This document shows, in pieces, positions 10,379 through 59,261 of a stretch of DNA of 64,000 bases (position 1 is the stretch's first letter; every line of letters begins with the position of its first letter). Source of the DNA: Apostichopus japonicus (taxonomy: Eukaryota > Echinodermata > Holothuroidea > Aspidochirotida > Stichopodidae); contig NC_092563.1 in NCBI RefSeq assembly GCF_037975245.1, forward strand, positions 17,659,594-17,723,593, given 5' to 3'. The position numbers and the translations under genes are program-made. The notes beneath the pieces are model-generated. The model had not been told where the DNA came from. It saw only the letters and a list, made by a program, of their open reading frames with translations, and did not search any database.

Positions 10379-13300
10379 ATGGTTTGTACTTTCATGTTAA
10401 TATTTCCGGGCTTCTGAGATCCAATTAATCGTTGCCAAGCCAATCCCAACTAGTTTGGCTGGCATACATTTCAGGTTAAACGTTGAAACCAGGGAGCTGC
10501 TACTTTAGCAGCTCCCTGTTTAGACCAAGTGACGTCTTGGCCTAGGCTAACGTTAGAACTAACAAGTATAGGCTTGTTTGCATAGGCCTAGGCCAGTTGG
10601 GAAACATGAAAGAACATAATATTTATCCTAACTTCCTAAGCAGGCTTTGAAATGAGTACACAATATCAAAATGTTGTTTCAATTGACTAGGTCCTAGGCT
10701 ACTTCAAGATACAAATGTCAACTGAACACAACAATATTCCATAGGCCTATGTGTTCAGAGTAATTATTTAGGCTGTACTCTGACCTGGGTAATAAGTTAA
10801 TCTGTAACTTAGATTCTAACTGCACCATTTTTATTCTTGTTGCTGCATCCCCAAATGGATCAGTAACATGATATGTTTTTTAATAAATAGCTAGCCTAAA
10901 TCCTGTAAATCGAGTAAAAAGTGTGCTAACTGTTATAGCATGCTTAAATAATTCTCTATTCCATGAGGGACCAGTGGTGTATGTAAAAGGACCCACATTT
11001 CCCATTGATTGCAGCTTTTCCCCTCCCGGAAGTCAATTAATGATGTCTTGCACTCTGTATACTGTGTAATCATATGTAGCTGTACTGACAGACTACAGAA
11101 TATATGCAGCTTCAATTGCTAAAATTTGCTCAGCGAAGGAAGGAAGGATCGCGAAGCATCAATTTTGTATGCCAAGGCACTTTGACAAATTATTTCACCC
11201 ATTTACTGGAATTATACCATAAATATTACACATGCATGCACAAAGTGAGGGAATTTGTTTCCTACCTTCTACTGTTTTGACTCAAGATCTTTACAATGAT
11301 AAATCTTTATATTGTGGATTCTGGAAAAACCTGATCAAATCATTAAAGAAACCACAAACATGAAATTTAAAAATGAACCCCAATGAAACAGAGAATTTGT
11401 GCTCTTAGTATCACACCTGATAATGTGAGCTAATATGACTGATAGAAAGAAGAAGTTAAATTACATCTTAATACTCATATATTGGACATAAACAAATAGC
11501 AACTTATGTCTGGGTGATGAAACGATGAGATTTGAATCATGCTTGTGAATTGCTCATAAATCTTTACTTAGGGGAGTAATCTTAAAAAGTAACTCTCTGT
11601 TTCTCTTTCTTACAGTCAAACGAAGTTGAAGAATCACTGAAAAGGATCCAGCAGATGAAGGGAGTGATTGGAATTATTGTGATCAATGCAGAAGGTATTG
11701 ATGCAGTTTGCTCACTCGTTATTGCATTAGTAGTATCATGGTCTAGCTGTGCTACCTGATCCACTCTGATTTCAAATGTTGAAGTATAACTTGATTTGTT
11801 GGATCCAGTGGGTTGTGGAATATTCAATTTATAAATGTTTGGATATTGGTTTAAATTATTACAGGGTTTCTTGCATGTAGTAATCACTGTTTCATAATGG
11901 ATATGATCTTTGCCTTTGCTATGATTTGGTGTCCAGTAAAGAAGGGAAAATATCCCTTTTTTGGCATTGACAGCAATTTACACATGTAGTCAAGTTGGCT
12001 GGTGTGTATATGTGTTAATGAGCACATAGTTTATGTGTTGATGATAACGCAAGAACCCATTTGTGGTTATAAAATTGTTAATGTGTAAAATTCTTCTTTA
12101 ATACTATACCTCGGGAATTTGATCATGAACAAAGCTTATTTTTTCAATCATAAGTTGCTATGTAACAGATGGAGGAAATGTGCATATCATGTAGGGAAGT
12201 TTCAAGGTCAAAGCATGAATACCTTGTAACAACAATATCTGTTAAAGCAATTGATTGGTAGATTTCATACTTGACATGTGTTCTATTGATGAGTGCAATA
12301 GACGTTTTGTTCCTTTGTGGATGTCATTTGAGGCCTATGAATGATAAATGTGAAGAAATCTTCTTTAACATTACATTTCAAGAGTTCTGTTATGGAAAGC
12401 ATTTATTGTGTCAGTGAAAGGTTGCTTCACAATAAATGGAACAACTGCCACATTCTGAATTTCAAAAGTCAGTAGAGGTAAAGAAAGAATTCACTTTATT
12501 ATCATATCAGCATCTCTAGAAGAGAAATGTTGCCATCAACCAAAATTTATGAAATTCATATTACAATGATTCAACTGTAATGTAGTTTGTAAAAAATTTC
12601 ACCTTATGTAGCAAATAAAAAAAAAGTAGCTGTGCATTTTAATATTTTTGCACACACATTGTTCTGTGTTACTGTTACATCTTTATATTGTACTATATAA
12701 TAAATGGTGTGTTTCGTTTAGAAATTTGATACTTTAGTGCAAGTTTCAATTTCCTTATATGGCAAGTACAGTAGCCACTGGTAGGTTCCTCACTCTGGTT
12801 TCATAACTTTCATTTTGTTCTATTTATCTCAGGCATTCCAGTGAAGACAACATTGGATAACTCTACTACAGTGCAATATGCTGGTTTGATTCATTCATTG
12901 ACAGCTAAATCAAGAAGCACAGTCAGAGATCTTGATCCACAAAATGACCTTACTTTTCTGAGAATCAGATCTAAGAAACATGAAATAATGGTTGCACCTG
13001 GTAAGTTTGTTCACTAAGTTAATGTATTTGGTATTTAACACCATTGCTTCATGGGCTTTACTAATTCTTTCAAACTTCCTTAGTTAATGGTAGGCAGGGC
13101 CTACAGTAACAGCACCACTTTGACAGGGTCCTTGTTATGCTAAGTATCAATTGTATTTTCTGTCAAAATCTCATTAATTCTGGAAGATATTTACATGTAT
13201 TTGGATCAACACTAAAATATGATGCTGATAATAGTTCCTGAATTGGGATCAAACCCTGATAACAGGAAACAAAAATGCAGCTCTTTTGAAGTTTGACTCA

Positions 13301-15624: not shown

Positions 15625-17784
15625 ATGGTCAGTGTTGTTTATGTTTCATGGTAATTTTACAAATAGGTTGTCAGACCTAGCCTGTCAAAAGTACATTAAC
15701 GAATTACAACTATAGCCTACGCCCCCCAGCACACCATGGATGATTCCGAAGAAGATTGCGAACACGAATGTTTCTTGAAATAGTTGATAGGCCTAGTCTA
15801 GATCTATGACCTTTTCTCTGTAGCTTAACAAAACATTTGATGGGGCATGGTTGGAAAACATTGCTCCATACTAATTTACAGAAGGTACACGGCTATATAT
15901 GCCTTGCATTGGAAACATGCAATAAAAAGTTTCACTTTTAGGCAATCATTTTGGGGGAAAGTGCCAACACCCATCCCCTTCTTAGTCCAGCAGCAATGTT
16001 AGTGAACTAATAGGACCTTCATAGTGCCCCTCATCTCTTCTTCTAAGAAGAAAACGAGATCTGTGTCAAGGTCGACATTGACTGAAGCTTGTGGTTGTGT
16101 TGGGAGATTGATAATTTATACAATTGAAAATCCTAAACATCTGACCCATGCATACTTTGTTAGTGTATCAATCCATATTGTGTGTTTGCTATTATAGTCA
16201 AGTGAAGTTGAAGATGCCTTGAAGAGGATCCAACATATGAAGGATGTGCATGGTACAATCATCATCAATGCAGAAGGTGAGTGTATTGTACATACAGAAT
16301 CCCATCTCTTTGCGTTTCCCCTTAACAGAAAATAGATTGGAATTGGATCAAATTATTACAGTGAGGAGGGAGGGGAGGGGCTACATAGGGACATGCTTAA
16401 TCCTTTTCATTTAGTGTCATTATAATTTAGCCCCATTGAGGTATTTCAAAATTTTTACTCTTGATACTGCTATGCATTGTCATATGAATTTTCATTCTGA
16501 TGTAAACAAACCAGACAGTTTGTCAAAATTTACTTTTTTAAGCAAAACATGAATATGAATGATCAATCATCTGATTGAGTGATAACAGGTGAACAGTATT
16601 GCAGTATAAACACTTATTTTTCCATGCAACTGGTGATAATTTTCAATGTTTAGTATTTATGTTTTTTTTTATATATGTCAGTATAAGTACAATTTTCATT
16701 AGGTCTGGCAATTAGATTACATGATCACACATATATCATTTCTTTTCAAAGGTACTCCAGTTAAAACAACTCTAGATGATTCCACTACATTGCAGTATGC
16801 TGCTTTAATCCATCAATTAACTGCCACAGCAAAAGGCACAATCAGAGAAATGGACCCACAAAATGACCTTACATTTTTGAGAATTAGATCTAAGAAACAT
16901 GAGATCATGGTGTCACCTGGTAAGTATTCCTGTGGGGTGTCTCAATGAGACAATGGCTCTGTTGTCTCAATCTCTTGTGATTGTTTTGTGTTAAAAAGTG
17001 TTTTTAATTTGATGGTATTACAGGATGACTTAATGCACAAAATTTAGTTTGATATGTTGTAGACCATTAAAAACACTGCTATCAGTTTACATTCTAATTT
17101 TTATATCATTTTTTAATTTTTGAGAAATGTCCATTTGGCCTTTAAACTGCTGAGGTTCATCAATTAAAGCAACAAAAAGTTACATAAGGTAAATATAGGG
17201 CCTCAAATGGCATGTTTGTAAACAATGCTTTACAGCTGTAGCAGCTGCATTTGGATAGCTAATATCTGTCACATCCATAAAATAATGAATATTGAGTTAA
17301 AAATATGTAATGTTGCCAGAGTCATGAGCAGTGATAATATATAAATACTACAGAATTTAAAAGTGAGAGACCCAAGATAGTGTTTTACTTTGCACACAAA
17401 CATCAACATTTAATGTAGGCTAACAGCTGAGTTATCCAGGCTGAACAGTCTTAACACCAAAGATGAGTGGAACTTGCTAAAATTTCATTAATTTATTATA
17501 GCAATTTGAAGTTACATTCAACATAGTAGTAGTACTTCATAACATTTGTAATATGATTTAAAATTTTGGTATGTGGAGTAAGAGGAATGTTAATTAATTT
17601 CTTTAAGAACTACCAGTAACATTAAACCATCTTCATTTTGAATTTATGATCTTTTGGGTGGGTTTGTGGTATGAAATTGTCTCAATATCTCCATGCAATC
17701 TCTGATTTTTTTTTTTTTTTTTTTCTCACTACAGAAAAAGGTTTCATGCTCATTGTCGTTCAGAACATAACAGAAGAAAAGTGA
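15625..17784 (+). CDS. DYNLRB: Dynein light chain roadblock-type, tandem copy 2
   Basis: Exons 16198-16276, 16752-16919 and 17735-17784 (stop TGA 17782-17784) have the same sizes and phases as copy 1 (79, 168 and 50 nt). The ATG-only first exon is placed at 15625-15627 (donor GTCAGT); an ATG followed by GTAATT at 15648-15650 is an equal alternative. The protein is 99 aa. It begins [15 protein letters not shown], keeps the invariant [20 protein letters not shown] and ends [16 protein letters not shown]. By hand count it is about 71% identical to copy 1, with changes concentrated in the N-terminal helix, the central helix (residues about 50-64) and the C-terminal tail. Open frames, good splice sites and conserved core residues argue for a functional paralogue rather than a pseudogene. 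Signals AATAAA at 19509-19514 and 19523-19528 are candidate 3' ends. Confidence 0.9.
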
Positions 17785-20320
17785 GCTGTGGTTGGAATGT
17801 GCTCTCTGTTGACTCTCATTTCAGCTTCTCTAATATTTCAAGAGAGACAAGTCCCATGCACTCTAGAAGTGTTATGTCTTAACATGTTGGGAATGTGCTT
17901 ATCCAAATAGGTCAACTTGCAATAGTCTAATCTAAAATAATAGCCTCTCTATTGTCTATAGTATTAGTCAGGGTTTGCCCAGGTATTCCACATCTCATGA
18001 TTTTCAACACATCAAAGAACTAAATGTGCAACTTTCAGCTCTTTGTTCCGGTTCCAAGAATATCGGTAAACTCTTCTCAGAATTTAGGACTCCTGAAATG
18101 TATGAAGAAATTTATTTATATGTTTTGAGTATTTTGAAAAGAAAGTTGCATTTAATATGAAAGTAAGTTTAACATAGGATGCATACCACTGATTCGGGTG
18201 TCTAATATCAGTTGAAACTTTATTGTGAGGAACTGATCTTTGAACACCAACCATTGGAAGCAAGGACTGCCTTGTATTGTGTAATATTACATGAGTATTA
18301 CATAATATTACATTGTGTAACATTACATATTACATAGGCCATATTTAAACTCGGATTAGATTAGATGGCTTCATTAGCTTGCTAATGACGAGAGATACTT
18401 GTAACTTGAAAATTTGGAATGGCAGAGCCAACCTCAACTATGTTAGAACATGCAATTTGCAAAACCCTTTCTGACTTGTAAGTGTAACAAGTTGTATTTG
18501 CTGAAGTTGGTCTCTTTGTTTTTATAAGGTTTTCTTCATCTTTGCTTTCATGAGGGCTTTTCATATATGAATGGTTTGTAAATATTTCATGCCAGGTTTA
18601 TTTATGTGTTTTTTAGTGTATATTTTGTACTCAATTGAACAGAGCTGCCGGTGGTCGTATACTTATTTCTTAGAATGAAACGGTTAATATTTACAGTTAA
18701 TTAAGATGCATCTACTTTGTGAAAAGTAGACCTGTGCATTAGCAATATGACAGTGAGTGGCAAGAAGGGTTTTTACTGGTGATTGGGAGAACATTAAAAG
18801 GATCAGTTGTCTACCATAGGGAGGGAATGTTTCTATTGTGTTCACCAAAATATAAATTTATTTGATTAGTAATGCTAATATTAGAACAAGAATTTCGTGG
18901 TTTAGAAAATGATAAACGGAAACAGTCAATCTGGGATAGTCTGCTTGCAATTTCCTTGTAATAGTTGGTAAATTAATAAGAAAAAATCTAACACCAAAAT
19001 GCGGTCATTAAAGGTAATTTGGAACTGCTATATTTTCTTAATTTGATGTGTCATAGACTCTTAGTTTTCAACTCACTTTTGCACATTGCTTAAACATTGC
19101 TTTTGCTGTTATCTCAAACAGTATTGGCTGATATATTTTAAACAATGCAAAGAGTGATTATATCAGAGATAACACAGCATTATGGAATGGAAACATTAAC
19201 ATTTTCAACCTACTTTGGTTAGGTTAGGTCTCATTATTAACTATTCAAATCTTGTAAATTTTCTCTTTTGCATGTGCGGCAACATAAAAACGATAATCAA
19301 TATCTACCAGGAAGACAGATTTTGCATAGCTTTTTAGAGGCCAATTTAGAGATTGAGTTTGTTTGGTATCATTTTTGTCAATATCTAATAACAGCTAAAT
19401 GAGTGAATATCACACTTAAAATCTTTCTCATTGCAACACAGAAACATCTTCACATCCTGACTCGATATGTCATGCATCTTTCGCTGTAGTATTACGTTAC
19501 GATTTAGAAATAAAGTTCTATTAATAAATCTTTGAATTCACTTTGCACTTTTTTTTCGTCACGTTAACTCTATTACCATCTAAGGAAGTGAGATTTTACA
19601 GTGAAAAAAAGTTGCCAGGGGGGATCTCCCTGCTAATTGCTTCGGTGAAGCGAGTGCCATCTCAATAGGCAGCCTTTCACCATTCTGCTTACATCTGTTA
19701 TATTTCCATAACCCTCCCCCTTCCCCCATCCCGTCCCCAATATTCATTAAATGTTGATCCCACCAACAAGCTAAATACTTAGTAACTGTTTCTAGACTCC
19801 TGTGATCTAGTACTATTATATGTTTGAAAAAAGACGAGGTTGGCCAAACCGCCTTAGGACTTAATTTTAGACAACCAAGTAACAAGTAGCCATTATTTTG
19901 GGAGCATTGATGTGCAAAAATGTTTCACATGGAAGACAAAACTTAACCTACCTGAATAAAAGCTCTGCATCACAGGGTACATGGTAGTGATTACTTTCTC
20001 TTTGAAGACAAGCTACATGGAATCCTTTCATGCATTCAATTTATTATAACACTTTATTAGAGTTTCTCTTAAATCAATTAAACATGATGGTGAAAGTTCA
20101 CTTCACATAATACTCACAACAGAGTCTTCAATCTTCTTTAATAATAAGAACTAATATTTTTACTTTAATAAGATACTTTTATGTGGTCTAAATGGGGATG
20201 CCATTCAGCCCCCTGGTCTAAACCACTAAGTATATGCAGAGCACATGATAGTCTATGAATGTCACTTTAGCTAATGAGACATCCAAATACGCCAGTCCAC
20301 CATACCAATATCATAATTTG
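17785..20320. other. 3' UTR of roadblock copy 2 and convergent intergenic spacer
   Basis: No coding exon was recognised. Two AATAAA signals (19509-19514, 19523-19528) followed by a T-run are the best candidates for the end of copy 2, which would give a 3' UTR of about 1.7 kb. An AT-rich palindromic stretch built from TGTAATATTACAT-like pieces lies at about 18278-18335. Confidence 0.5.
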
Positions 20321-20684
20321 TTAAAGGGTGTGAAGACTCGCGCACAAAGAAATGTGTCGTGCCGGTAATCTGACCCAAGTTTCAAATGAGGTGTAACAGA
20401 AGTGTTAGACACCACCATCGATCCCAGAAAATACATACACAGCTTGCTACCGTCGATAATGAGAAACTAGTTTACAGTCAATACATACAGCTACGGTCGA
20501 TACCCACAACACAGTGTACATAGCAGCGTGGACATCTCAGGTCTAGATTTAAGATAACAAGGTATCACGCTTCATTACTGTCTGCATTTTGTAGCGACAA
20601 GAAGAAAACGTCATTTGCGAGCAATGGAAAGTTAACTTTTTCAGAGTGCGGCACGCGGTTTGGGGCGAGTCTTCAATGCCTTAA
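20321..20684. mobile_element. TTAA-ended MITE, copy 1
   Basis: TTAA at 20321-20324 and TTAA at 20681-20684 bound a 364-bp element whose ends are imperfect inverted repeats: AGGGTGTGAAGACTCGC at the left against the reverse complement of GCGAGTCTTCAATGCC at the right. A second copy in the same orientation is at 25441-25814 and shares most of the interior, including the CACCACCATCGATCCCAG and CAGCTTGCTACCGTCG blocks. TTAA target sites are typical of piggyBac-type transposition. There is no coding capacity, so it would be non-autonomous. Confidence 0.7.
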
Positions 20685-20699
20685 AGCTACGGCATGTCA

Positions 20700-20800
20700 G
20701 TTATCTGTAATAAGCATCCCCATATGTATCTTGAATTGGGTCGAATATGCCTACCAAGTGGCGGCTGTCAAAGGCAGCAGCAATATTCATTAAGACTATA
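20700..20800 (-). pseudogene. CIAO2B last-exon relic, unit 6
   Basis: The minus-strand translation NIAAAFDSRHLVGIF resembles [15 protein letters not shown] of the functional exon at the same register. The rest has diverged, and no splice acceptor precedes it. It sits next to the TTAA MITE that ends the array. Confidence 0.5.
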
Positions 20801-21099
20801 CACAATAGATACAATACTGTATATGAAGCTTGCAGAAAGTCCATGCTTCCCCCATTTGACATGTGGTGAGATGTACAATTTTTGTCAGACAACTACAACA
20901 TGACAGTAAACAACATATCTATATTCCTCTTATCTGCCTAACTCCTGTAGACAGTTCTGTATAAGTTGTTTCAAAGTATCTATCTGCATCAAGAAAAACA
21001 AGTATATGAAGCTCACACTGTTGTAAATAATTCTCTCTGACAAGAATGTACAGTTATTAAGCATTATCCTAGGATTAATGACTGTCTGTATGTAATAAC

Positions 21100-21192
21100 C
21101 AGCGTATCCATCAATCTCTATCTGATAGACTCTTGTTGACAATTCCCAATAAGTTGTTTGGAAAGGTAGCAGCGCAAGCCTCATCAAAGAAT
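21100..21192 (-). pseudogene. CIAO2B last-exon relic, unit 4 (best preserved C-terminus)
   Basis: After a one-base deletion the minus strand reads AATFPNNLLGIVNKSLSDRD then stop. This compares with [22 protein letters not shown] then stop in the functional exon, so the stop codon region is also shared. The segment upstream that would carry NKQLADKE and the acceptor is lost. Confidence 0.65.
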
Positions 21193-21304
21193 GGATGGTT
21201 TATAAAAAGGAGCTCATGCTAGTCTATGCCTGCCCAGTGATCTTAACTAGATATTTATTTCAAAAACTACTACATGACAGTAATCAGCCAATCTATGCAT
21301 TCTA

Positions 21305-21372
21305 TGCAGACTCATTGACAATTTCTTTTCTTTTGACAAAGGCCACTGCAATCCTTATGCAGTACTTTCCAG
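21305..21372 (-). pseudogene. CIAO2B last-exon relic, unit 3
   Basis: The minus-strand frame RIAVAFVKRKEIVNESA followed by TAG parallels [19 protein letters not shown]. Its downstream flank repeats the GGGCAGGCATAGACTA motif that also follows the real exon, supporting a 390-bp higher-order unit. Confidence 0.6.
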
Positions 21373-21499
21373 AATAGAAAATTGAAAAAATTGCTGTTCT
21401 ACCAAGCCAGTCCATTTGACATGATTGGTCAGTTCTTTAACATGGTCCTTATAAAGCTGCCTGCCATTAATCAGGCAGTAATAACCAGCATATCCATGG

Positions 21500-21585
21500 A
21501 TACATCTCTTTCTGACAGTTGACAATTCTCAGTAAGTTGCTGTCAAAGGCAGTAGCAATCCTCATTAAAGAACGGATTGTATATA
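21500..21585 (-). pseudogene. CIAO2B last-exon relic, unit 2
   Basis: The minus strand encodes RIATAFDSNLLRIVNCQ, matching [18 protein letters not shown], with a small deletion before the CTGTCAG motif that shifts the frame. No usable acceptor AG lies at the equivalent of the real exon border. Confidence 0.65.
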
Positions 21586-21681
21586 TAAGGAGTTCATGCT
21601 ACTGTAGTCTATGCCTGCCCATCTGATGTGATTGATCCGTCTTTTATAGCATCATTCCAAGAGTGGCAGCAACAACCAGTT

Positions 21682-24041
21682 CTATGCATCCCTCCCTGAC
21701 AGGCACTGGTTCACAACTTCCAACAAGTTATTGTTTTCCAATGCAGCGGCAATCCTTTCCTTGTCAGCCAATTGTTTGTTTACTGTGAGGTGCAAATGAA
21801 GTTTGAATTTTCTATTACTCAACCAGAACTTTGCAAATGTATTTCTATAATTCCTTGTTAAATTACTTTAAGAGAGAAGAAGAAGAACATTCACAAATAA
21901 TGAATAATTTAATAACAATAATAATCAAAATAACAAAATAATAATACACCTACTTATTATTCATGACAGCTACAGATTTTTGGGAGAGTTCCTCTTCTCA
22001 ATAATCTGTAATTTCTCCCTCCCCCCGTTTCCCCCTATACAGGACAATGACAATAGACGGTGTCAGCAACAAGAGATACCAGTATCCAAGCAGTTACTGC
22101 CTCTACTATTTCTACCTGTTATGAGTTGATATTACTATTACAATTACTACAAAAAATAAAGCTATGATCACTAAAAGGTTATCATTTGAATTCATTTCAG
22201 GATAACAGTGAAAAAAACATCACCTGCTTTCTCTGATACATGGGTGCCTTCTTTAATGCACACATCCACCTAGAAGAGGAAGAAAGAGATCAAGACTAAA
22301 TTAATATGTTCAAATAGAAGATAATATTAAAAATAACTTGGAAAGAAAGATATCAGAATATCAAGATATTGCTGATCTGTTTAAATTTTCAAAATAAGCC
22401 CTAAGTAAGCTCAGGCCCTTAGGCTAGTTAGTACTTACTGTATTTTAATACAAGCAAAGGCATTACACACACACACACACAAGCCACCAGTATTGCATCT
22501 ATTTTATTTGTCATCAGAAAGGAATAAAACAAATGTTTTTGTCTGATACACAAGGTTAAACAACGATGTAACATATCGATAGGTTATATCTCAGGATCAA
22601 TCTGATATTAACAATGTTACACAGAGTCAAGTCACATTAAAAAAAAAATACTTACCTTAAATCTTGGCGGAAGTGCTCTCTGTAATTTTACCCTTATTGA
22701 CAATCCAATCAAAGTTGCCATACTGCAATGTGGAATTGTTGGAGTAAAATTAACTTTGATGATATTATCTTGGTTGTTTACCTAAGAAAAGACAGAAAAC
22801 AAATGAAATAAAACATGCTAGAGTTCCTTTGTATGAGGCAGTTTTTTTTTTTTGATTTCCACACCACTTTTACTACCAAACTGGGAAAAATATGATATAA
22901 TACCTGTTACTACTCTGGTTATATGACTACCATGCACATTATTTCCACTATGTGAAGGTCACTTGCTGTTATTTATATTGTACAACTTACAAAGTTCAGT
23001 ATTTTGAGCCTCCACTAACAACAGTAGTTTAGTAGTCACATTACATTCACAAGTGGATTTAATAAAACAAAGCAACATGCATTCATTGATAGTAATAAAG
23101 ATATATAAATATATATATTTATTTGAACAGCCTGTTAGACATGTTTCTGCAATTTCCAAGTTTCAAAGATTGATGTTACAATACTTCACCTACCTCTATT
23201 TCTGCATTCTCAACCACATGAAGTTCTTCTAATGTCAAGGGATGCTCAGGGTCGTTGATATTTCTAACAAGATGTGAATCAAAATTAAGGATGAATAAAA
23301 TAGTTGGCAGTGCCACTGATTCTCATTAACAACTTCTCAACACTGTAATAGTTAGCACATGACTGTACTAAGTATAGGAAAGGAAAATGGTTCACACCTA
23401 CCTGGGTTCTACCAAATGGCTGAAACAATGGCCTACTGTGCATTTTTAACCGTCACAGCCAATAGGAATGCCATTTACATATCTTACTGTATTACAGAAG
23501 AACTACCACTCCTCCACAAATACGTAAGGATGGTGAAAGGGATTGTATACAGTGTTAAAAGTCACTATGTTAAGGGACTAGTAAGGGCACAACTTTTGGA
23601 TTAATCATTCATAGGACAGCGGTAATACTAGTAATAGTGATCTCTCTGATATTCCTATGAGTTTTTAATTTTGTCCTTCAACTTTGTGATTTATTGAGTA
23701 TATTACTAAAAAAGACCATAATTAACCCACGAAGAGGTAATCCCTTGGCCAAACTTAGTTAAGGCATAGTCAAGCCTAGATGTATAATTAATGTGCGATT
23801 ACTAACACACTTACGTTATGCCTATGGGTCTACTGTAGCCTAAGTCAAGTGTAACGTTACTCGTTAGCAACTTAGTGTTATCGCAGTTCATTAATTTTGA
23901 TATAGAAAGGATATCAAATATTTCTCTAGTGTCGAATAAGTCCTCTATGTCATCATCTTCATCTTCGGCGGTAGTCTTTCGTTCAACAAGACGTTCATGA
24001 ACTGTTGGATTTACATTTTCTAGTGTTTCATTGCCTGCCAT
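21682..24041 (-). CDS. CIAO2B: Cytosolic iron-sulfur assembly component 2B (MIP18/FAM96B)
   Basis: Minus-strand exons are 24041-23815 (ATG 24041-24039), 23263-23194, 22781-22656, 22269-22224 and 21782-21682 (TAG 21684-21682), giving 189 aa. Conserved blocks in order are [22 protein letters not shown], the DUF59/MIP18 core [20 protein letters not shown] with the reactive cysteine of [34 protein letters not shown] and the C-terminal [13 protein letters not shown]2B works with CIAO1 and MMS19 in the CIA targeting complex, passing Fe-S clusters to cytosolic and nuclear apoproteins such as DNA polymerases and helicases. The protein is about 26 aa longer than the human one, because exon 1 runs about 31 codons past EIFDIL before its strong GTAAGT donor. 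The only other in-phase donor, GTTGCT, would leave about 14 extra residues. It is divergent from TTC5. Its last exon is the first unit of a decayed tandem array. Confidence 0.93.
22465..22481. repeat. (CA)n microsatellite in CIAO2B intron
   Basis: A short uninterrupted CA run lies between CIAO2B exons 3 and 4. It is a possible polymorphic marker. Confidence 0.9.
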
Positions 24042-24323: not shown

Positions 24324-27300
24324 ATGCAGGCAGAGGTTTTATCACAAATGAAGGTGATGTCACGTTATCGTCTTTTGAACTTCTCAGACAAAGTTAGGTT
24401 AATGTTGAATGAATGCCTAACATTAGGCCGTCCGTAGTAGCACTGGTCTAATGTTAGTCTACTTTACCGTATTTTGTGTGTTAATGGGGGTTGTTTTTCA
24501 ATCCCTGGCCAGACTAAGTAACGGTCTTAACTTTGAATAGGGACCTGGGGCCAAGGATTACACAAAGCCCCAAACTGAAGCAAAGCAAGCAAATCATTAG
24601 TGCAAAGTGTTTCGTTCTCACATCTTCTTGATGATGGTGAACCTGTCATTGTTTAAAGCAATGTCATGCTGTGTGAACCATATACTGTAGGCTTGGGACA
24701 CCTACGAATCCATGCTTCAGGGCATTGCACCCCTCAAATCCCTGGCCTTACCACTAGATAAAACTGGTCAAACACATGTCTCATGCACAATGATTTTGGC
24801 CAAAGTTACGTTGTGCATTCAGTGAGTGCCCCTCCTTGTGACTAGGTTTTGCTCAGTGAAAGACCTGAGTGGCATGATATATGATATAGTTTGTGGGGGA
24901 GACTGAAAGTTACGATATAGACCAAGCCTATGGATAATCTCTCATATAAAGCAGCAAACCTATGGTAATCATTATTGATTTATGTAGATAATGAGAGTAT
25001 AATGTAGTATTCAAATTTGTGAAGCAGTGTTGATGGCTCTAAATTTTGTGTCTCATAAACCACATTTGTTCCTGAGTAAAAAAGAGTGCTATACATGATT
25101 GGACTTAAATATCAATTTGACCATATTTGGATAGCATTTTATGATGTGATACTTAATAAATCATTCCCTGATAATTACTGTTGCATCTTTTTTTAGCATT
25201 CTAAGGTTTCTGTCGGTTACCTTAGGCCATGTGAAGTGTCCCATCTGTACCCCAGGATAATTTCGCATGCTTTAGTTTACAGCATGTATGAAAAAACAGC
25301 AGAGCACACTCCAATCATGGCTGTGTTGTGGGTTCACAGTGTTAAACAGCATGTGTGCAGGGATAAGAAAAATTTGAATATATATGCTCATAAAGTATAA
25401 TTGTCACATATAGGAGATAGAAATATATCTGGGCATTAATGTAAAGGGTGTGACGACTCGCGCACAAAGAAACGTCTCATGCCGGTAATTTGACCTAGTT
25501 TTGAATGAGGTGTAACAGAAGAGTTAAACACCACCATCGATCCCAGAAAATACACACACAGCTTGCTACCGTCGGTAATTAGACACTAGTGTACAGTCAG
25601 TACATATACAACTGCGGTCAATACCCACAGCACAGTATACAAACGATACAGCAATGGACATCTCAGGTCCAGCTAAAGATAACAATTAAGGTATCACGTT
25701 TCATTACTGTCTGCATTTTGTAGTGACACGAACAAAACGTCACTTGAGAGCAACAGAAAGTTAACTTTTTCAGTTGACCGCATGCGGTTTGGGGCGAGTC
25801 TTCAATGCCTTTAACAGACATTTGTTTCTTCTAACCTTCTTCTAACTACATGCTATTGTTTTATTTGTAAATCTCTCCAGTGCAATCACCTCTTGCAGTA
25901 CTAAGTTAATATTTAATTAATAATTTTATGCTTGATTGTCAGAGTAATGATTGTATTATTTTTAAGGCCATAATTTGCTCATTCCTCACTTAGATTCAGC
26001 AAACTCAAAATGCGAGAATTAATTTTTATTCCAAAAGTGACAGCATAGACTTCATTTATCAATTTTAAGTGATCATGATTTAAGCCCACAGACAAGGTTT
26101 GGTTACTTTATATTTGAAATGGAATTTACAGTATAATAGGACTTAGTCATATAACTGAAATCCATAGGTTCTTGCCAAAATCTATATATTTCAAAATTAT
26201 ACCTTCAATTTTATTTTCAATATTTTACAGATGGCAGTCGATAATCTCTATGATTTCCGTGATCATTACTTTGAAAGAAATCCAATAGAGAAGGCTATAG
26301 ACAAAACGGACGATGTGCGAACTGAGCTGGAAAAGGTTTTGAAGAAACTCAATGAATCTCAAGGTTTGTCTTCAAGTTGCACTATTTATTAACTGTGTCA
26401 AACTCTGGTGATACATTGTGAAAGGAAAAACACTGTAAGGGTATCTGTCATCATAAACTGCTCAACGAAATTAAAATTTGGTGATGCAGAATTTATTGGA
26501 TTGGATTAAGCTATTAATAAATCACTAATTAGGTGTGTGACAATTGGTTATTGCAACATATCTCTTTAGTTAGATTTAGGCATGTCCAAATTATCACAAT
26601 GCATGTTCAGAACTATGCAGAATTATGCAAGTACCAAGTTCAACTTTTAAGTTAAGCCTTTTTAAAGCATCCACTGTAGTTGCTATGGGAGAGTAGTTTT
26701 TACTCATTCCAGGTTTACATTTTGATTGTTCACTTATAGGGTTATGTGGGACCTTAAGTCCTGGGTATACTTTTTATTCAGTTTTGCAAACTTTATGTTT
26801 CAACTGAATTCTGTCCTTCAACTATTGAACAGGTCAAATTGAGAGCAAGAGTGAGTTTCTTCTTCTGAAAGGGAGAGCATTAAACATCTTACCAGAGTTT
26901 AGTCCTGAAGCCCTTGATTGTCTTTCAAAAGCTGTCAAGTTGGATCCTAAACTAGTAGAAGCCTGGAATCATCTTGGAGAATGCTACTGGAAGAAAAAGG
27001 ACATAGAAAATGCAAGAAATTGCTTTACAGGAGCCTTGAATTATGTAAGTTGAATTTAACATCCAGTCCCCCCACCCTCCCTCCCTCCCCCCTCATGCTT
27101 TGTTCATCTGATATTGAATGGTTCAATTGGACCCTAGGTGGGTTTTAGGAAAATTTCATGGCATTTAGTAGGAAAAGTATATCACAAAATTTTTTAGATG
27201 GTTTAGTGAAGTTCTATGCTTTTAAATGATTAGGAAATTGTCTAAATTAAAAATTACTAAATAAATCTTTAAATTTTGCTCTTTGTATGAGCTAAATATA

Positions 27301-30300
27301 CATGTGAAATTCATCGGGTGATGAAAGTTGTACTCTTTTAATTCAGTGCATGGAGCAATATTGGCCTTTCAGTTGTATCCTTCTTTAATCTGATATTTGG
27401 GAAGTTTGGTCAAATTTGCAGGAATTGTTAACCAGACACAAACAACTGGACTCTTACTTCTTTAAAATTTATTCCTCAGCTTAAATATAAAGCATCTGCA
27501 AATAGCATCCTATGAGCATCTTCTGACCTGGAAGTTTCTTCCTCATTCATGTAATCTCACCACAATATTTGTCAATTTCTGTGTCAATGTTTGTTAAAGA
27601 CTCTGCCAATGCCGGCCGCATTCGAATTGTCACTGTCAGAAAAGGTTAAAATACACTTTGAACATTGACAAGAGAACAGAGGCTGTACCAATCATTTTCT
27701 TTGTATTGTATATATTTCCTCTTCTGTAATTTCATACATGTTTCTGTCTTCTATGTTAATTGTTGGTACTTTTTGCCTGATATGAATATGCTGCTAAAGC
27801 AATAGAAGTCTGCAATATAATTCTTCATTAAATACTCTGTTTGTTTGTATTCGTCAGTCGGAGAACAAGGTTTCCTTGCGTAATTTGTCCATGGTCCTGC
27901 GGCAGCTTGGTGGTACTCCTGAGGAGAGGTCAAAGTTCATGCAGCAGAGTGTGGATAACATCAAGAAAGCTGTACAGTTGGATTTCAATGATGGCACATC
28001 GTGGTGTAAGTAACCAGTCCTTCTATTTTGTACAGCTCAGGATTAATTTAAAATGCAAGCCTTATCAAATACATGTTTGATAAACTTAAAAGAAGGAAGG
28101 AATATCTTTTCCTTGTTACTACAGTGCTCACCACTCGATTTCAGTAATGGTACATTGTGGTGTAAATGTCCAGCAAGTTATTTAGTACAAGTTGGAATTA
28201 ATGTATGCATACGTACACTCAACAATCACATGTTTGTAGTTTAGGAGTAGGAATGCATACCATTGGCTTGAAGCTGATACTGTCGTAGTCGTTTTAATTT
28301 CAGTGATAGTTCACACTTGTGTAGGTCAGCAGTTTACTATCACTCAACCGGCACTGTCAATCCCAGTTTTTTTTTTCTGCACCACTTTCGAGAAATGATC
28401 CTTGACCTGATATGTTGATCCGTCCAAGTAACTAACCTGGATTACTTAGTCTATATGAAAAACAGACCATTAAAGGGTTTAAGAGATCACAAAATAATTT
28501 GATTCCAGTGATATGGTTCATCATGTTTTAAGTGTTCTTTACTTAAAATCAAGTGCCATCAGTTCTGGCTTTGTTTCTGTACCAATTTAAGAATTTTCCT
28601 TTAAAAAGTGACAGGTTAATCAGTCAAGTGACTGGATTACAAAAGATTCTCAAGACATAATTTTTAAAAACAGTGAAGTAACTATTAGACGTCAATATTT
28701 CGTTATAGTGAGTTATTTAGTTTTATTTCAGTTATAGAAGTTCTTTCTGATTTAAATCAACCTGTTCTTTGTCATTTTTCATAGTTATTGCCGGAAACAC
28801 ATACTTGAGTTTATTCTTTGCGAGTGGCCAGAGTGCATCGATACTAAAACAGTGCCTTGGAGCGTATGCCAAAGCAGTGAGTATTTGTGATTCTACTGAA
28901 TTTTATTGTACACTGTTGATATTCAATAGGTAATCATAGCAGTAAAGGCAACACAGTATGTAATTGGTAGACAATCACAGCTAACCTTTCAGCTTGCCTA
29001 AAAAATAAAACAAAAGAAGTCACTCACCGTCAATGTTATTTGTGTATTTAATTAAATGAATAATGGAAAACAGACTGGGAAATTATAGAAAATCAAACAG
29101 AGAAATGAAAGTTATGCCTAGAGATCTAGCCATGAGTTTCTTAGCTCTTTCCAATCTTGCTTTCATCAGAGTTGTAATAAGTGGTTCATTTAACCATTGA
29201 GTCAAGTCATAACGAGTGATTTTCCTGACTCAAGTCACTCAAGTCACCTTTACAATCTTTTCGAGTTGCTTTTTTAAAAAAAAAAAATATTTTAACTTGA
29301 TTCATGACCAATTACAACACTGGTTTTGAATCGATCAATTATTTCAGACAACCATTATTTATCATTTTCAGTGTCATTTTGACTGTGTGTGCAACCTGCA
29401 GTATGTCTGAAGAAGTAGTCCTGATGTTAAGGAAAACAACGTTGAAAATGTCAGAGTTTGTGATTTCTAAGTTGTAGAGCTGGACAGAGATTTAAAATAT
29501 GATAATTATATAAACTTAGTGGTGATACCAGAGGTTTCAACATATTTGAAATGTTATTGACTGTGACTTCTAAATGTTACTGCCTCCTTTATACTTGGGT
29601 GTTTGGTTAACATCAAGTTTTTGGTTTCTAAGCCATACAGTATATATGTGCTGTGAACAGAGATACAAAACAAAGTATAGAACATCACAACCTGTCTCAG
29701 TGTTAATTTAAACTATGAGGACACTTTGTAATTTTTTACTGATAATTTTTGGTTTTCATCCTACAGGAGAAAGATCCAGTTGCCAAGAGTAACCCTGACT
29801 TACACTTTAACCGAGCTGCAGTAAGTATGGTTTTAATACATTTGTGTGGTATCTACCTATAAAGATATGTACTTCTTAAATGCCAGGATTTTTCACTAGT
29901 ACCATTGGTTAATGTGTAGAAAGATTGCTTTCATATCCTACTAGTGTGGTTGATCAAGATGTAGCCTGTCACCTACAGTATAATCACTAACCAGACACTT
30001 GAAATTTATGAGGAGTATTAGCTGTTAGCCGATCAGATAGCCTAGTTCAGATGACAGGAGAAGTAGAAGGGAAGGCCAGGCCAGGACGTAGGAAAACAGG
30101 ATGGATCGATAACATCAGGAAGTGGACGGATGGAGGAATGGCCATGGCAAGAGCAAAGGCACACAAGAGAATGCTGACGGTTCTGTGAGGACTATGGCAA
30201 ATCAGCAGCAGCAGCAGCAGTTAGCTCAGTGGTTAACGCCGGTGCCTTCCAATCATAAGGTCCCGAGTTCCAGTGTCTCCAATATTAATATATGTCATCC

Positions 30301-32628
30301 AGTTACAGAGTTGTTGACAATTCATAACCATGGACTTTAAATATGAATGTAAGAAACTGACTTCGGTCAGCTTGGGGCTTTGATAAGCCAATGAGGCTTC
30401 TTCGCCAGTTCCTGTTTGCAGGAGGATCTAAAATACAATACATACTTTAAATTTAAATCCTGCCAAGGTAATGTTTTGTAAAGAGTATTAACAAAGATAG
30501 GATAGATATTGAAATGCAATGTTAGAGGTGATATATGTAGGAAACAATGAAATTTTTTGGAAGGCAAATTCCTCGGAGCAAAGATAATTGATGTTACTTT
30601 CATCCTTTATCGCAGATTTATAGATTCCAAGAAGAGTACCATTTGGCAATCGAAGGGTATGAGAGAGCTACGGCATTAGACCCACTATGGAAAGAACCGC
30701 AGGAAAAACGGAAAGAATTGGTCAATTTTTTGTGGAAAGTGTCCGAACTTGTCAGATTAAAGGTAATACTTTAGTAGAGTTTGAGGTTGTGGAGGAATTT
30801 GGTCATGCGTGAGTTTTTTCTTACCTTATAAAAGTATATCATATTTGTATGGTGTTAATATCTTGAAAAAGCTTGTTTTCAAATGTTTGACTTTCATTGT
30901 ATTTATTACATTCAAAACTAATATTCTGGATCAAGTCTTTATTTTACAAGAAACGTTTTTTACTCCACAGGGCAAGTTGAAAAACAAGAAGCTCCAACAA
31001 TTGATATCATCTTTGACAGAGGCAGATTTAGGGCCATACGCCGGAGGATCGTACACGGGTGCGAACAAGGAGACGGTGAAACTAGAACCATGCCCCCTCT
31101 CTAAGCTGGTGGAGGGTAAGAACCTTGAAAAGGTCGTGGTAGGAAAAGTGGTCTGCAGCGTCAGTCTCGACGAACCGATTCCTTTGTAAGTAAAAGAAGA
31201 TCTGTTTTGATATGAATGCCATTTGTAAAAGTTACTTTTACTGTACCATAATCCACTTAATAACAGATTCACCTCAGATATTAGTAAATACATTAATTCA
31301 GTTATTGAGATATGAAGTATAAACCTGCTTCAGTCCTGATAAGCAGATTGCTTTGTGAGACTATCATAGAAGTAAAGGAGTCATCATTATTAGATATTAT
31401 TAATAATTTCTATATTCATTGATAAAGTGTCTGAATGATAAAAACTTGTTCGAGTTCTGCTTGTTGAAAGCATAAGGAAGACTTTGCATGACATGCTACC
31501 ACTACTCTGTATTGTACTGGAAGCTTTATAAATATAAAAAACTTGGTGACTGTAAGACTTGTCCAGAAGTCTGAAACAACTTCATATCTCATCAGACAAC
31601 AAAGTTATCCCAAAGAGGTAGTCTGAAGGAAAACCAATGTATTTTGGAAAAAAAACGAAAAAACCCACCCCTTCCTTCCAATAAACATTAATCTTGTTGT
31701 ACAATCAAACTTGCTGTTCTGAGAAGTGTAGAATAATCCCAGGTTGATGAGCAAGGCACAAACTTTCCTCAAAAAACCAAGCCATAGATAATGCGCAAAT
31801 ATATTCGTAATTAATTTTGTTTTGTATTTCTTTCCCCTTTTGTTTTATTTATCCATTTCAGCACATTTGCAATAGTAGATTCAGAGGGATCCTGCTATGT
31901 TGTTAATCTTTACAACGTCGCTCAGGGTCAGGGGGTCATCATCGGAGATTCAGTAGCCATTCCAGAACCACACATCATGAAAAATGATCTTTCAGTCGAT
32001 GATAAGGTGAGTCAAGTTTGGAATTTAGTTCCTTGCATTTGTCTTCACTGTTTGTCTTGAGTAATTTAAACAAGTTGATATTCGCTGAGATTTCCGGTTA
32101 CCTTGTAGCATTTTTTCTACCGGGCAGTTGGCAATATGCGGTCATTTAGGACTACCACTGCAGAGTTTTTACGAATCTAACCAATCACAGAGAAATCAAT
32201 TTGCACGAAACCTTTGGAAGCACCTGTCATTCACAGCAAACAGTTGTTGTGTTAACCCATCATTTGTTCAGTGTTGAAGGGGAGGGGCAGGAGGAGGGGG
32301 GAGGGGAGGAGGGGGAGTCAGTAGTGTAAGTATGGGTATTCAAGACTTTCCTTGATCACAACGATCTAGTTGAGTAAGGTCACATTCAGTCAGGGCAGTG
32401 TACTGTGGACATCACAGTGTAGTATGTGGTGTTCCCAGTCATCAGTAGATATTGGAGACCTACCAAGAGTGATTATCTTATCAACTTTTTTTTCCCTCTC
32501 CTCGTCAGCATATTAACTTCTTCAGCATTCGAGTGTTATCACCAATATACCTGGTAGTGAACAGGAGGAAGTTAGGTGCAGATAAACAGGCACCTGCTAC
32601 TCTGCAAGTTAGCACCTTAGGAGAGTGA
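24324..32628 (+). CDS. TTC5: Tetratricopeptide repeat protein 5 (STRAP)
   Basis: Exons are 24324-24353, 26231-26363, 26833-27044, 27858-28005, 28785-28876, 29767-29820, 30616-30762, 30971-31185, 31862-32006 and 32509-32628 (TGA 32626-32628), together 1296 nt and 431 aa against 440 in human. The TPR region includes KAVKLDPKLVEAWNHLGECY, NKVSLRNLSMVLRQL, AGNTYLSLFF, NPDLHFNRAA and EGYERATALDPLWKEP. The C-terminal OB-fold region includes KKLQQLISSL, VVGKVVCSVSLDEPIP, TFAIVDSEGSCYVVNLYN, GVIIGDSVAIPEP and IYLVVNRRKL. In vertebrates TTC5 is a p300/p53 cofactor and also reads nascent tubulin N-termini on ribosomes to trigger tubulin mRNA decay. Exon 1 (10 codons, donor GTGATG) is the weakest part. 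The ATG at 26231, directly after an acceptor, is an alternative start. Intron 6 carries a LINE fragment and a SINE. Confidence 0.94.
25441..25814. mobile_element. TTAA-ended MITE, copy 2
   Basis: This is a same-orientation copy of the element at 20321-20684. It begins GTAAAGGGTGTGACGACTCG and ends GCGAGTCTTCAATGCC-TTTAA, with the CACCACCATCGATCCCAG interior block. It lies in intron 1 of TTC5. The 3' TTAA is present; the 5' side has decayed to GTAA, with TTAAT just before it. Confidence 0.7.
30020..30188 (+). mobile_element. 3' end of a LINE reverse-transcriptase ORF (5'-truncated)
   Basis: One frame of about 55 codons reads SRSDSLVQMTGEVEGKA, then RPGRRKTGWIDNIRKW, then TDGGMAMARAKAHKRM, and ends in TGA at 30186-30188. 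The pattern GRxxxxWIDNIRKWT followed by a basic tail is typical of the extreme C-terminus of non-LTR retrotransposon ORF2 proteins. Nothing upstream preserves the catalytic domain, as expected for a 5'-truncated insertion. It ends in a CAG-rich tail and touches a SINE. Confidence 0.6.
30203..30220 (+). repeat. (CAG)n tract between LINE fragment and SINE
   Basis: About six CAG units lie between the LINE stop codon and the A-box end of the SINE. This could be the LINE's own simple-repeat tail. Confidence 0.8.
30220..30446 (+). mobile_element. tRNA-derived SINE, copy 1 (TTC5 intron 6)
   Basis: It starts with the A-box TTAGCTCAGTGG and a degraded B-box (GAGTTCCAGTGTC), and continues through ACAGAGTTGTTGACAATTCA and the AATGAGGCTTCTTCG and CAGGAGGATCTAAAATAC body motifs into an ATAC-rich tail. 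It is the same family as 37686-37824, 38790-39036 and 44956-45200. Confidence 0.8.
32279..32316 (+). other. G-rich tract with G-quadruplex potential (TTC5 intron 9)
   Basis: Several runs of four or more G separated by one to four bases lie on the sense strand of TTC5, about 190 bp upstream of the last exon. This meets the simple G4 pattern. Structure and effect on splicing are inferred. Confidence 0.5.
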
Positions 32629-37854: not shown

Positions 37855-40072
37855 ATGGCAGGAAGACAGGATGGATCTACCAATGAGCAAACTCTGCATC
37901 AGCGTAAACCAAGTCAGGGCAAAGGAAATGACAATCAGGCTAAGGTCACAGGTCAGGGTGACAGTCAGGTGACAGCTGAAGATGAAGTTCTATCAGAAAA
38001 GAAAAATTATGGCACTGAAGCTGATATGAAGTAAGGCTATGAGAGTGGCAGTACTTGGTTTCTTGATTTTAAGAAACATCCGACGATCAAGAAATTATAT
38101 ACTCCGCTAGAGTTGACCAAATCTGCTTATTTAAGCAAACATGAACAGTGCTCTTTTATAACTTTCCTGCGTTGAAAGGCTTTCCAATGTTTCTTTGGAG
38201 TAAGAGTTCCTCCCTCCATGAAAGCCCGTCTAATAGAATGTAAAAATTGCTGATTTATTTCGTTATTCGCACTAAATCCAGAAAGTAGTGCAGTTTATTT
38301 ATAAATGCATTAAAAGCTGGTTGCAAACGTTTAAGGGACCAATTGCTGATTGGTGGCTTTTAATAGGCAATAAACACTGTTAGCTTATCAAATCTGTTTC
38401 AATTGACAACTTTGTAATGTTTGGAAACAATTCTCATTCTGCTCTGAACTTGAGAGAGGTAAAATGGTGATCAAATTTGGTGAATTATGGGATATATGTC
38501 ATCGAGAGTGGCTCTTACCTACTCACAGTTAACATTATGTGTATTTTAACATTTTTTTTAGTTTTTTATGCAAGTTGTATAATATACAGTACACATGCTT
38601 TATTGTAAATGTTTTATAATTTACTATCAGCTTTTTTTAAACTTCTGCAGGGTTCATACAGCTCAAGACTCTCTGCTTAGCAATGCAAGTGGCTTCAACA
38701 ACTATAGAGGCTTTTTGAATCTTTGTATTGTTCTGCTGGTAAGACAATTACTTCTTTGTTCAATTGGTGGGATTGGTTGGATAAGCAAAATGTATGTATG
38801 TATGTACTGTATGTATTTTAGATCCTCCTGCAAGCAGGAACTCGCGAAGAAGTCATCAGTGGCTTATCAAAGCCGCAAGCTGACCGTAGTCAGTCCCTTA
38901 GATTCACAATTTAACGTCCATGATTATGAATTGTCAACAACTCTGTAACTGGACGACATACATTAATCTTGGAGTAGCTCAAACTCAGGACCTTATGATT
39001 GAAAGGCACTGGTGTTAACCACTGAGCTAACATTCCAAAATCAATTAATTTATAAAAGAATTATTAAATAATGGGAGTCAGTCAATTTGTAAGTGCTCCC
39101 ATCATTGCACTGATCATTGTAACAAATTTCAAAATAAAAAAAATGTGATGTGTTAAATAACTAAAAAGTACTTATCAGAGAATAATTTAGTGTTCAAATT
39201 TTGCACAGCAATTTGTCTTACATCATTTGGTAAACTTTCTTAAGAAAGGAATCTTTTGAATGATCAATGAATTTTACTTTGCAAAGTAATTTGTTGGACC
39301 TGTTGCTGTAAATTTCTCACATGCTACATGTCTGTGAACTAATAGCCTTTTTTGCCTTTGCTCAAATAGGCAATGTCCAGTGGTCGTCTTGTCCTGGAAA
39401 ACTTATTGAAGTAAGTGTTTGTTTTCTTTCTTGGTTTAATATTGAGCAATGCTAGTTGAGTTCATCCATCTTCTCCTTTTTTTGTTAAATGTTCACAAAT
39501 CACAGTTTTTTTTCTGGTCTCAAAGTTTAGTTTCGTTGTTATCGGTTTGTGACACACAAGAATAACTTTATTTGGACTTAAGGTATAGTTTTATGTCAAA
39601 TCAGTGCAAAGTGTGATAAAACTAACTGCAAAATGTCAAACGGATTTGGTTAGAGAATGGTTGGATCTCACCTCAGTGTAGTACCTTTTTGGATTTTGCA
39701 CAAATATGAAGCAATTTTATCACATACATGCATGATCACAGTTAGCGACTTCAATGTGACGATATATATAATTCAATTATATATATATATATTATATATT
39801 AGGAATCGAAAATGATTTTGAGTCAGTTAGCATGATGTTTGATCTCTAGAGTAAGGCAAATATCTCACCAAAACAGAACTAGTATTGTTCACTACAGGTG
39901 ACAAATGCCTACAGTGGAATTACGACCTTCCTTACCGGTTTCGAACCTCTGAACATACAATCAGCATCCATGGCCTAGTGGTTAGAGTATCCACGTATAA
40001 AGGGGGGGGGGGCACGGGTGCGAGTCCCAGTGGAGGCTGGAAGTTCTGGATTTTCCAACTCACTACAATTTC

Positions 40073-43100: not shown

Positions 43101-46100
43101 TTAGGTGCCTGACCGTGTAAACTCCTGCATGATAGGTCAAAGATCAGAAAGGTCAAGAAACCTAAAATTGTTTTTTTTTATCCATTTTCTGTTTATCAAC
43201 ATGTAGGAAAATGGCATTAATCCGCATGATATGTAGAGAATGATGAGACAATATTTAAAAATAATATCAGTTTAGGATTTGGTCAAAGGTCAATTGAGTT
43301 TAATGGTTTAAAATTGGTCTGAATTGTGCGAAAAAGTGAGTCGTGAAATTCTCCTAGATCATAAGTCCAATCAAGTTCAACCTTGGTGGGTAGGTATCTG
43401 ACCATGTTAACTTTTGCATGGGGGATCGATAATGTTGTATGTCAAAGTTCAATGGTCAAGATATCTTAACATTTGGTTTTTAGCCATATTCTGCATGCCA
43501 ACATGTTGAAAAAACTCATTACACCAAACAATATGTAGAGAATGATGACGCACATTTTGTAATAAGACGGATTTAGGGTCAAAGTTCAACTGAGTTCAAA
43601 GTTAAGACTGGTCCAAATTGTGGAAAATGAACACAAAAAAAAAGGAATAATATTCATAGTACAATGCTTTAATATATCTTTCCAATGCTTATAAAAATCT
43701 TGGTACAAACAAACAATAATTAAACTAATTTGATTGATGATGGTTGATTACATTGAGCATCATTATCATTGGGGGTCGACAGCTCAGTTATATTTTGAAA
43801 GTGAGAATACATTGTTCTTCATGCCATATTTGCCCAGGTAATGTTCCCTAACCGACCTTGGACTTCAGGGATGTATGTAGCCCACATGACCATCCCTCTA
43901 CAGTTAGCATAGCAGTAACTGTCAGGGCTGCTTCAGAATGTTTAGCAATATATAATGGATGCTCTGACTCAGTGAGTCTGTTCTTTAATCCAAGTAAATA
44001 AAGCTTGTAAATTACATCTGGTCTGAAGTGTTTTATTGAGAGGATGAGAGAGGATGAGTAAAAACAAGTAATCTAAATAAATCATACAAACACACGTAAT
44101 GGAGGTTTCCTGATCACTTTCTTAAAGATTTCAAAAAGTCTGTGAAATTTGGTCTATTTACTGACCAAATACCCGTGAAATTTGTCATTGCCAGTAGGGA
44201 AAAGAGGTACTGGCATTTTTCTGCCAGATGCCATTCAAGTTTGATAAATCGGTTAATAATCTTTGGTCAAAAAATTATTTTCTCTTCTATTTAATGTACT
44301 TGCTTTTATTTATCAACATATTAGTGCTCTTTTAGTTAGTTGCTGCAATACTTTCTTTTTGTGATCAAAAAGATCACAAGTTGATTTTTTGTTAATATCC
44401 TTTTAAAATTCAAATTTTTAATATCACAATTTGCTTCTGCACTCAAGATGTTTAGAGCAGACTTTTCCTTTTTTAAATCTAAATCTTAAATAAAGCTTTG
44501 AGTGTTGTCTACACTCTTGTCTGTCCTTCTGACTGTCTTCCTTATTCTGTCTGTGTGTACACACATCTGTGAGTTTACTACTTGCCTTGTTATTCTACTT
44601 AAGTTTCATCTACTTAAAGTCCCAATGATAAACACTTTGAAATCATCTCAATGTTTCATTCACACTTTGTTCTCTCGTGTTGTCATTACGGTTCTATTCT
44701 AAGCCACTCTGTTGTATACTTTAATGAATAATTGCTTCTTATTTATAGAAGCCCAAAATAAAATATAAAATATTGTGTAAACTAACCGTGAATGAAGAAA
44801 ATCTTCAGGGACAGTTTGTAAAGCAAAGTTTAGAGGAACATGCATTTGTCACAAATACAATAGTGTTAACATTCTGTCCAAATTTACATTCAACTTTCTT
44901 ACAGTGCATCTTTTTAGATATGTCAGATATTGGCAATTCCAGTTGTCACATTTTAGGAGTGTTAGCTCAGTGGTTAACGCCGATGCCTTTCAATCAAAAG
45001 GTCCCGGGTTCTAGTCCCAGATTAATGTATGTCGTCCAGTTACAGAGTTGTTGACAATTGACAATTCATAATCATGGATGTTAAATGTGAATCTAAGAGA
45101 CTGACTTCGGTCAGCTTGCAGCTTTAATAAGCCAATGAGGCTTCTTCGCGAGTTCCTGCTTGCAGGAGGATATAAAATACATACAAATACATACATACAT
45201 TTTATATAAAATGTGAACTTGAAACAAAACAAAACATGATGTCATAGATGCACACATTGCATATAAAAAGGGTCTTCTTTATTTCTCATGTAAATATTTG
45301 ACAGTCTTAATATCTTACTTTTATTTTTCTCTTACCAGTGGGAGCATGCTTTGCTCTGGGGATGTATGCCATGGCTGCCATGAAGTTATACTCCTACCAC
45401 GTCGTCAATCAGTGGTGTAGACAAGCGATCGGGGAATCGAAGAAGAGGAAAAAAAGTTTAAAGAAGACACCACCGTCGTCTCCAAAGAAAGAAACCAATC
45501 AAAAGACTGACCTGGAGAAACCCAAAGGTAAGGTTAGAGATCAGCTGTGGTTGTTTTTGAAAATAGAAGTTATTCATTTTCTCATTTTCAGACAAACATT
45601 TCAGAGGTGGGTCGTTCTTGTTTTTGACTGTATAGGAGAGTGCGTACTCGTTGAGTGCGTACAGTCCGTACTCGTTTTTATTTTTTTATGTTTTTTGTTG
45701 TTTTTGTTGTTGTACTGTACTGGTACTTTTGGTAATGGATATATGTACTCATAGTCATAATTGGATCAATGTCGGAAATGTAGTATTATGACCCTATAAT
45801 GCAACACTAAAAGCCTGGTCATGCTACAAATATACCATGGGCGATAATGTAAACGAATCTTTTATTTGTTAAAAACATCTTCATCGCAAGTGGTAATTGT
45901 TACGTTTAGCCAAGGGCTGAATTTTGTTTGACATTTGTAGCACATAGCCTGTATTAAACGTCACTAATTGATAACTTGATCTCCCAGGCTGATTCTGAAG
46001 ACCGATTTAAAGAGCGATGGGTCCAAATTGCAGGCTTTGACTGAAAGTAGGCAAATAGGTGGGCAGTAGCAGCTTCTAAAATAGGATATGATGATAAAAG

Positions 46101-59190: not shown

Positions 59191-59261
59191 GTTTATGTAA
59201 TGCACATTGGATATTTACTTCATTGCACAAGCCAATACTTCATAAGAAATTTCAAAAAGTT

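Follow-up and report, generated by a model that had tools for sequence, protein, structure and literature searches.

Local satellites and minisatellites may show a higher-order (dimer) periodicity. Another source of local repeats is tandem exon duplication, which PMC9013439 describes as abundant in both the coding parts and the UTRs of genes. That paper names the terminal exons of the fly gene pip among the duplications, and it reports that exons of OBSCN, UGT1A, hydra and pip are spliced, with some unannotated homologous stretches. Here we describe an array of diverged repeats at the last exon of a CIAO2B-type gene of Apostichopus japonicus, and we compare it with both kinds of system. We analyzed a stretch of 64,000 nucleotides (the window).

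The minus strand of the window carries a gene of the CIAO2B type (MIP18, galla-2). Its last three coding exons, joined (22781 down to 21682), matched fly galla-2 (PDB) over 87 residues (E = 2.9e-38), and the same query matched FAM96A behind it (E = 1.3e-30). Against the Pfam family FeS_assembly_P, the C-terminal query scored 22.1 bits, slightly under the cut-off of 23.5, and the N-terminal pieces scored 19.4 bits. This relation to solved CIAO2B-type proteins, along with the Pfam domain, points to membership in the CIAO2B/MIP18 family. The peptide encoded by the last exon aligned without gaps to galla-2, reaching the G of SGRDA, and also without gaps to FAM96A. A search of viral contigs for relatives of the gene gave 24 pattern matches, of which none was confirmed.

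Other genes in the window include an opposite-strand gene upstream of CIAO2B, seen as a TPR-repeat coding stretch at 26829-27050 on the plus strand (PF07719, E = 1.2e-9), which by eye we take to be TTC5-like. Two similar open frames on the plus strand (12775-13014 and 16703-16945) match Roadblock/LC7 (PF03259, E = 1.3e-12 and 4.1e-12) and are probably tandem paralogues of the dynein light chain roadblock. No tRNA genes were found in the window with the bacterial code setting.

On the minus strand, six units lie head to tail from 21757 to about 20690, and most of the last exon of CIAO2B belongs to the first of them. We set the unit starts at 21757 (U0, the exon), 21566, 21356, 21182, 20994 and 20791, which gives spacings of 191, 210, 174, 188 and 203 bp. 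A first-pass annotation of this DNA had proposed that the exon heads a decayed array with five more units about 190 bp apart; we did find five, at spacings of 174-210 bp, and the exon-like peptide fragments that it had read from the relics are present in the translations. Its extent for the array holds in that the exon and five units belong to it, and needs correction at both edges: the similarity sets in some 25 nt past the exon's start, and the far end is at about 20690, next to a dispersed element. The features are:

21682 to 21782, minus strand: the last exon's coding portion in the CIAO2B/galla-2-like gene, with acceptor AG at 21784-21783 and stop TAG at 21684-21682, placed from the translation and the galla-2 alignment.
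21567 to 21757, minus strand: U0, type A; covers the exon from codon R of DKE/RIAAA through the stop and then about 115 nt of 3' flank; found by the relic-only profile (E = 2e-13); aligns with U2.
21357 to 21566, minus strand: relic U1, type B, MRIATAFDSNLLRIVN...; its exon part aligns, with 0 of 1264 controls as good.
21183 to 21356, minus strand: relic U2, type A, RIAVAFVKRKEIVNESA*; the first canonical AATAAA past the stop lies here (first base 21259); its exon part is equaled by 2 of 1266 controls.
20995 to 21182, minus strand: relic U3, type B, AATFPNNLLGIVNKSLSDRD*, ending in a stop close to the homologous position; its exon part aligns and is equaled by 0 of 1264 controls.
20792 to 20994, minus strand: relic U4, type A; recognizable from its flank and from the other units only (exon part, 1119 of 1264 controls as good).
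20690 to 20791, minus strand: relic U5, type B, truncated, MNIAAAFDSRHLVGIFDPIQDTYGDAYYR*; exon part, 12 of 1264 controls as good; profile matches to it come from profiles that include U5.
20322 to 20685, no strand assigned: dispersed, presumably MITE-like element that adjoins the array distally and has imperfect terminal inverted repeats; 85% identical to a copy at 25442-25814 (E = 9e-103).

Several comparisons confirm that the exon heads the array. Self-BLAST against the window aligned 21417-21757 with 21038-21356 (350 columns, 64.6% identity, E = 1.28e-24) and gave three further, shorter pairs (30-65 columns, 71-90%). A profile of the five relics, built with the exon left out, recovered the exon unit at E = 2e-13, while its next match in the 64 kb was at E = 0.4. 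We also compared the exon to each relic zone and counted how many real stretches of the window scored at least as high. None of 1264 such controls did so for U1 or for U3, 2 of 1266 did for U2, 12 of 1264 for U5, and 1119 of 1264 for U4. Judged by these controls, the resemblance of the exon part appears clear in U1 and U3, good in U2, fair in U5, and absent in U4. What places U4 in the array is its flank, together with its relation to U0-U3.

When whole units were compared, with U5 including about 80 nt of the neighboring element, 9 of the 15 pairs scored above all 300 shuffles. These include U0-U4 (19, against a shuffle maximum of 18), U1-U4, U2-U4 and U3-U4. For the remaining 6 pairs, 1, 3, 8, 10, 20 and 48 of the 300 shuffles were as good; U0-U5 (10 of 300) and the weakest pair, U4-U5 (48 of 300), are both near the shuffle level. 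Identities between whole units are mostly about 60-66%. The tandem-repeat search that had been suggested as a check came back empty, as Tandem Repeats Finder at a score of 50 gave no entry over the array. The homology of the units and their order are established by the comparisons above, and the units are what a (partial) tandem exon duplication consists of: copies on the same strand, head to tail, and homologous to an exon of the neighboring gene.

The copies appear to share a boundary inside the exon. When the exon was aligned locally with each relic zone, the match in 4 of the 5 zones began at 21757, 21756, 21756 or 21753, or 25-29 nt into the exon. All four starts are within 4 nt of one exon base, and three are within 1 nt; the relic zones that were compared extended 34-49 nt further upstream than these starts. 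Upstream of the boundary, U1 and U3 are alike (ATTCTTTRATG or nearly so) and are unlike the start of the exon. With the resemblance setting in some 25 nt past the exon's start, the copied segment would comprise most of the exon together with the stop codon and some flank, and would lack the splice acceptor. We consider this to be well supported rather than proven because the absent stretch is only about 25 nt long.

The units also seem to fall into two types. There are 10 ways to split six units into two groups of three, and the alternating split (U0, U2, U4 and U1, U3, U5) ranks first, with an excess within-group similarity of 8.6 score units. The second-ranked split, in which U4 and U5 are exchanged, reaches 6.3. 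Because the alternating split is the best and because the 350-column alignment joins one dimer to the next, it is supported that the six units are a dimer repeated three times. The dimer starts are separated by 401 and 362 bp, as compared to the 390-bp higher-order period of the first-pass annotation, whose alternation of unit types is favored by this result.

The element at the distal edge is not a part of the array. Its label as MITE-like is provisional: its length of about 365 bp, its terminal inverted repeats, and its second copy (85% identical) are what it has in common with a MITE-like non-autonomous DNA transposon. Its arms (20321-20341 and 20665-20685) are inverted and 81% complementary, and its two copies flank the coding exons of CIAO2B, one on the 3' side and the other on the 5' side. 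If the element is excised in silico (an empty-site test), then the profile match to U5 runs across the joint. With the profile of U0-U5, the match to U5 at the joined site scored 7.0 bits higher than with the right flank by itself, which 3 of 400 random flanks equaled; with the relic-only profile, the gain was 2.8 bits, which 26 of 400 random flanks equaled; both of these profiles include U5. It is plausible that the element inserted into the last unit, U5, and the empty-site test is suggestive of this. The flank beyond the element (20120-20321), taken alone as a continuation of the array, was not above controls (299 of 814 were at least as good). The element's end sequence had no matches in viral contigs.

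The distribution of differences across codon positions bears on which sequences have been constrained. In the common alignment, with the five relics pooled, the exon and the relics differ at 74 of 221 first and second positions and at 56 of 108 third positions, an enrichment at the third. Between relics (10 pairs pooled), there are differences at 178 of 404 first and second positions and at 74 of 197 third positions, so there is no third-position excess. The corresponding Fisher values, 0.0018 for exon-relic and 0.135 for relic-relic comparisons, are not strict probabilities because related pairs were pooled. For single relics against the exon, there was no third-position excess for U1 or U4 (p = 1 for each), and there was one for U2, U3 and U5 (0.023, 0.055 and 0.019). 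Separate local alignments gave a third-position excess in U1 and U2 and none in U5. The pattern is what one constrained source and several free copies would give, and an absence of coding constraint among the relics is supported by it; we use the counts as support only because the pairs are not independent.

We propose that a tandem duplication first copied a stretch of about 190 bp, which began some 25 nt into the last exon and continued past the stop codon into the 3' flank. The pair so formed would then have been amplified to three dimers, probably via unequal recombination. The first copy would have been kept as the real exon by purifying selection on the protein, and the other five would have decayed. 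We put the probability that a decayed, partial tandem duplication of the terminal exon explains the array at roughly 0.87. The first-pass annotation's proposal that the terminal exon and its 3' flank were amplified in tandem is supported by the relic-only profile, by self-BLAST, and by the shared boundary; what we infer is that recombination was the mechanism, which amplification step came first, and that the relics lack a present role. Several observations count against the account: the exon part is not recognizable in U4, two pairs (U0-U5 and U4-U5) are near the shuffle level, the second-ranked split is at 6.3 against 8.6, and U1 and U4 taken singly have no third-position excess.

It is unlikely, although it is the best of the alternatives, that CIAO2B still draws on some or all of the relics for alternative terminal exons or 3' ends, in the manner of the duplicated terminal exons of fly pip. 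Near the relic starts, we found 10 candidate acceptors, for each of which 7 or more of the 12 bases ahead are pyrimidines. Two of these lead into a relic in the exon's frame, which speaks for use; both are ahead of U5, and the predicted product is VLMNIAAAFDSRHLVGIFDPIQDTYGDAYYR or a longer form. There is one candidate ahead of each of U1, U2 and U3, all out of frame, and U4 has five, one of which is in the frame of the multiple alignment, yet a stop is met first. Overall, the number of in-frame candidates seems to be about what chance gives (about one in three), and the segment that was copied starts inside the exon and so would have carried no acceptor. Splicing to a relic would also cost the protein its conserved C-terminus. 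As for 3' ends, the canonical AATAAA at 21259, which lies in U2 some 420 nt downstream of the stop, and those at 20058 and 20045, beyond the array, are compatible with use; these are the canonical signals on the minus strand. Because the first of them sits in the third unit, the distal relics may be beyond the transcript.

Alternative terminal exons would each be expected to have an acceptor of their own in the right phase and to show coding constraint. To judge from the candidate acceptors and from the relic-relic differences, which have no third-position excess, the copies have neither, and the alternative ends that the first-pass annotation had envisaged are unsupported. Its other suggestion, a self-complementary transcript, fares no better and was set aside because the repeats are direct and because shuffled versions of the 990-nt strand fold about as well as the strand itself (z = -0.28, with 6 of 20 shuffles at least equal). 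This unremarkable fold also counts against use of the relics more generally. Among RNA families, searched from 19000 to 24000 up to E = 1, the single match was mir-302, at 23.2 bits against a gathering score of 55 and outside the array. A more specific version, in which U5 would, through an in-frame candidate acceptor, occasionally replace the usual last exon (a diverged second C-terminus for CIAO2B) and the repeated 3' flanks would form a ladder of alternative 3' ends, is still less likely than use in general. Nothing in the sequence suggests that the copies still act, and most likely the relics are decayed and functionless.

We also considered whether the exon was recruited from one unit of an older satellite, as the first-pass annotation had offered as its second option. 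The exon unit is indeed in register with the array. However, the exon peptide is common to fly galla-2 and FAM96A without gaps, so the exon predates the array and is its source rather than its product; the peptide is ancestral and the exon older than the copies. Furthermore, the relic profile finds no unit below E = 0.4 in the window outside of the array. Satellite DNA has many homogenized copies, usually at several loci; the 64 kb contain these six diverged units and none elsewhere. We reject recruitment from a satellite as very improbable. Least probable of all is that chance and low-complexity sequence explain the similarity: Tandem Repeats Finder was silent, the identities are low, and some pairs are within the shuffle range, but the self-BLAST, exon-to-zone, whole-unit and profile results with their controls all stand against it, and it is refuted by the leave-exon-out profile search.

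Outside of the array, the relic profile has three short matches (30288-30323, 38923-38963 and 45026-45064) with E from 2.8 to 7.2. They have an identical 25-bp motif in common (at 30298, 38929 and 45035), which lies inside open frames with LAQWLTP...KVPSSS or KVPGSSP (30113-30337 and 44749-45054). The three sites look like a dispersed SINE-like family that is unrelated to the array. The window also contains tandem arrays at 54065-54556 (period 48 bp), 58500-59195 (period 232 bp) and 59655-60340 (period 31/62 bp).

How does the CIAO2B array compare to the known systems? Like a satellite or minisatellite with dimer periodicity, it has alternating types, a monomer of about 190 bp, and a dimer of about 360-400 bp. 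Unlike these, it has just six units, one of which is a coding exon, and the units are strongly diverged and not homogenized. A working exon beside its decayed copies is a readable fossil of a failed exon duplication, which is instructive if unsurprising: selection on the exon and decay of the relics can be compared because both stand side by side. If the copies were to occur in transcripts, then they would illustrate how partial exon duplication gives rise to new gene ends. As in the tandem exon duplications of PMC9013439, an exon and adjoining DNA were copied head to tail; in contrast to the cases named there, the CIAO2B copies start inside the exon, are without an acceptor, and look decayed. 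The CIAO2B array is most likely a decayed, partial example of tandem exon duplication, which is an ordinary and already described kind of event.
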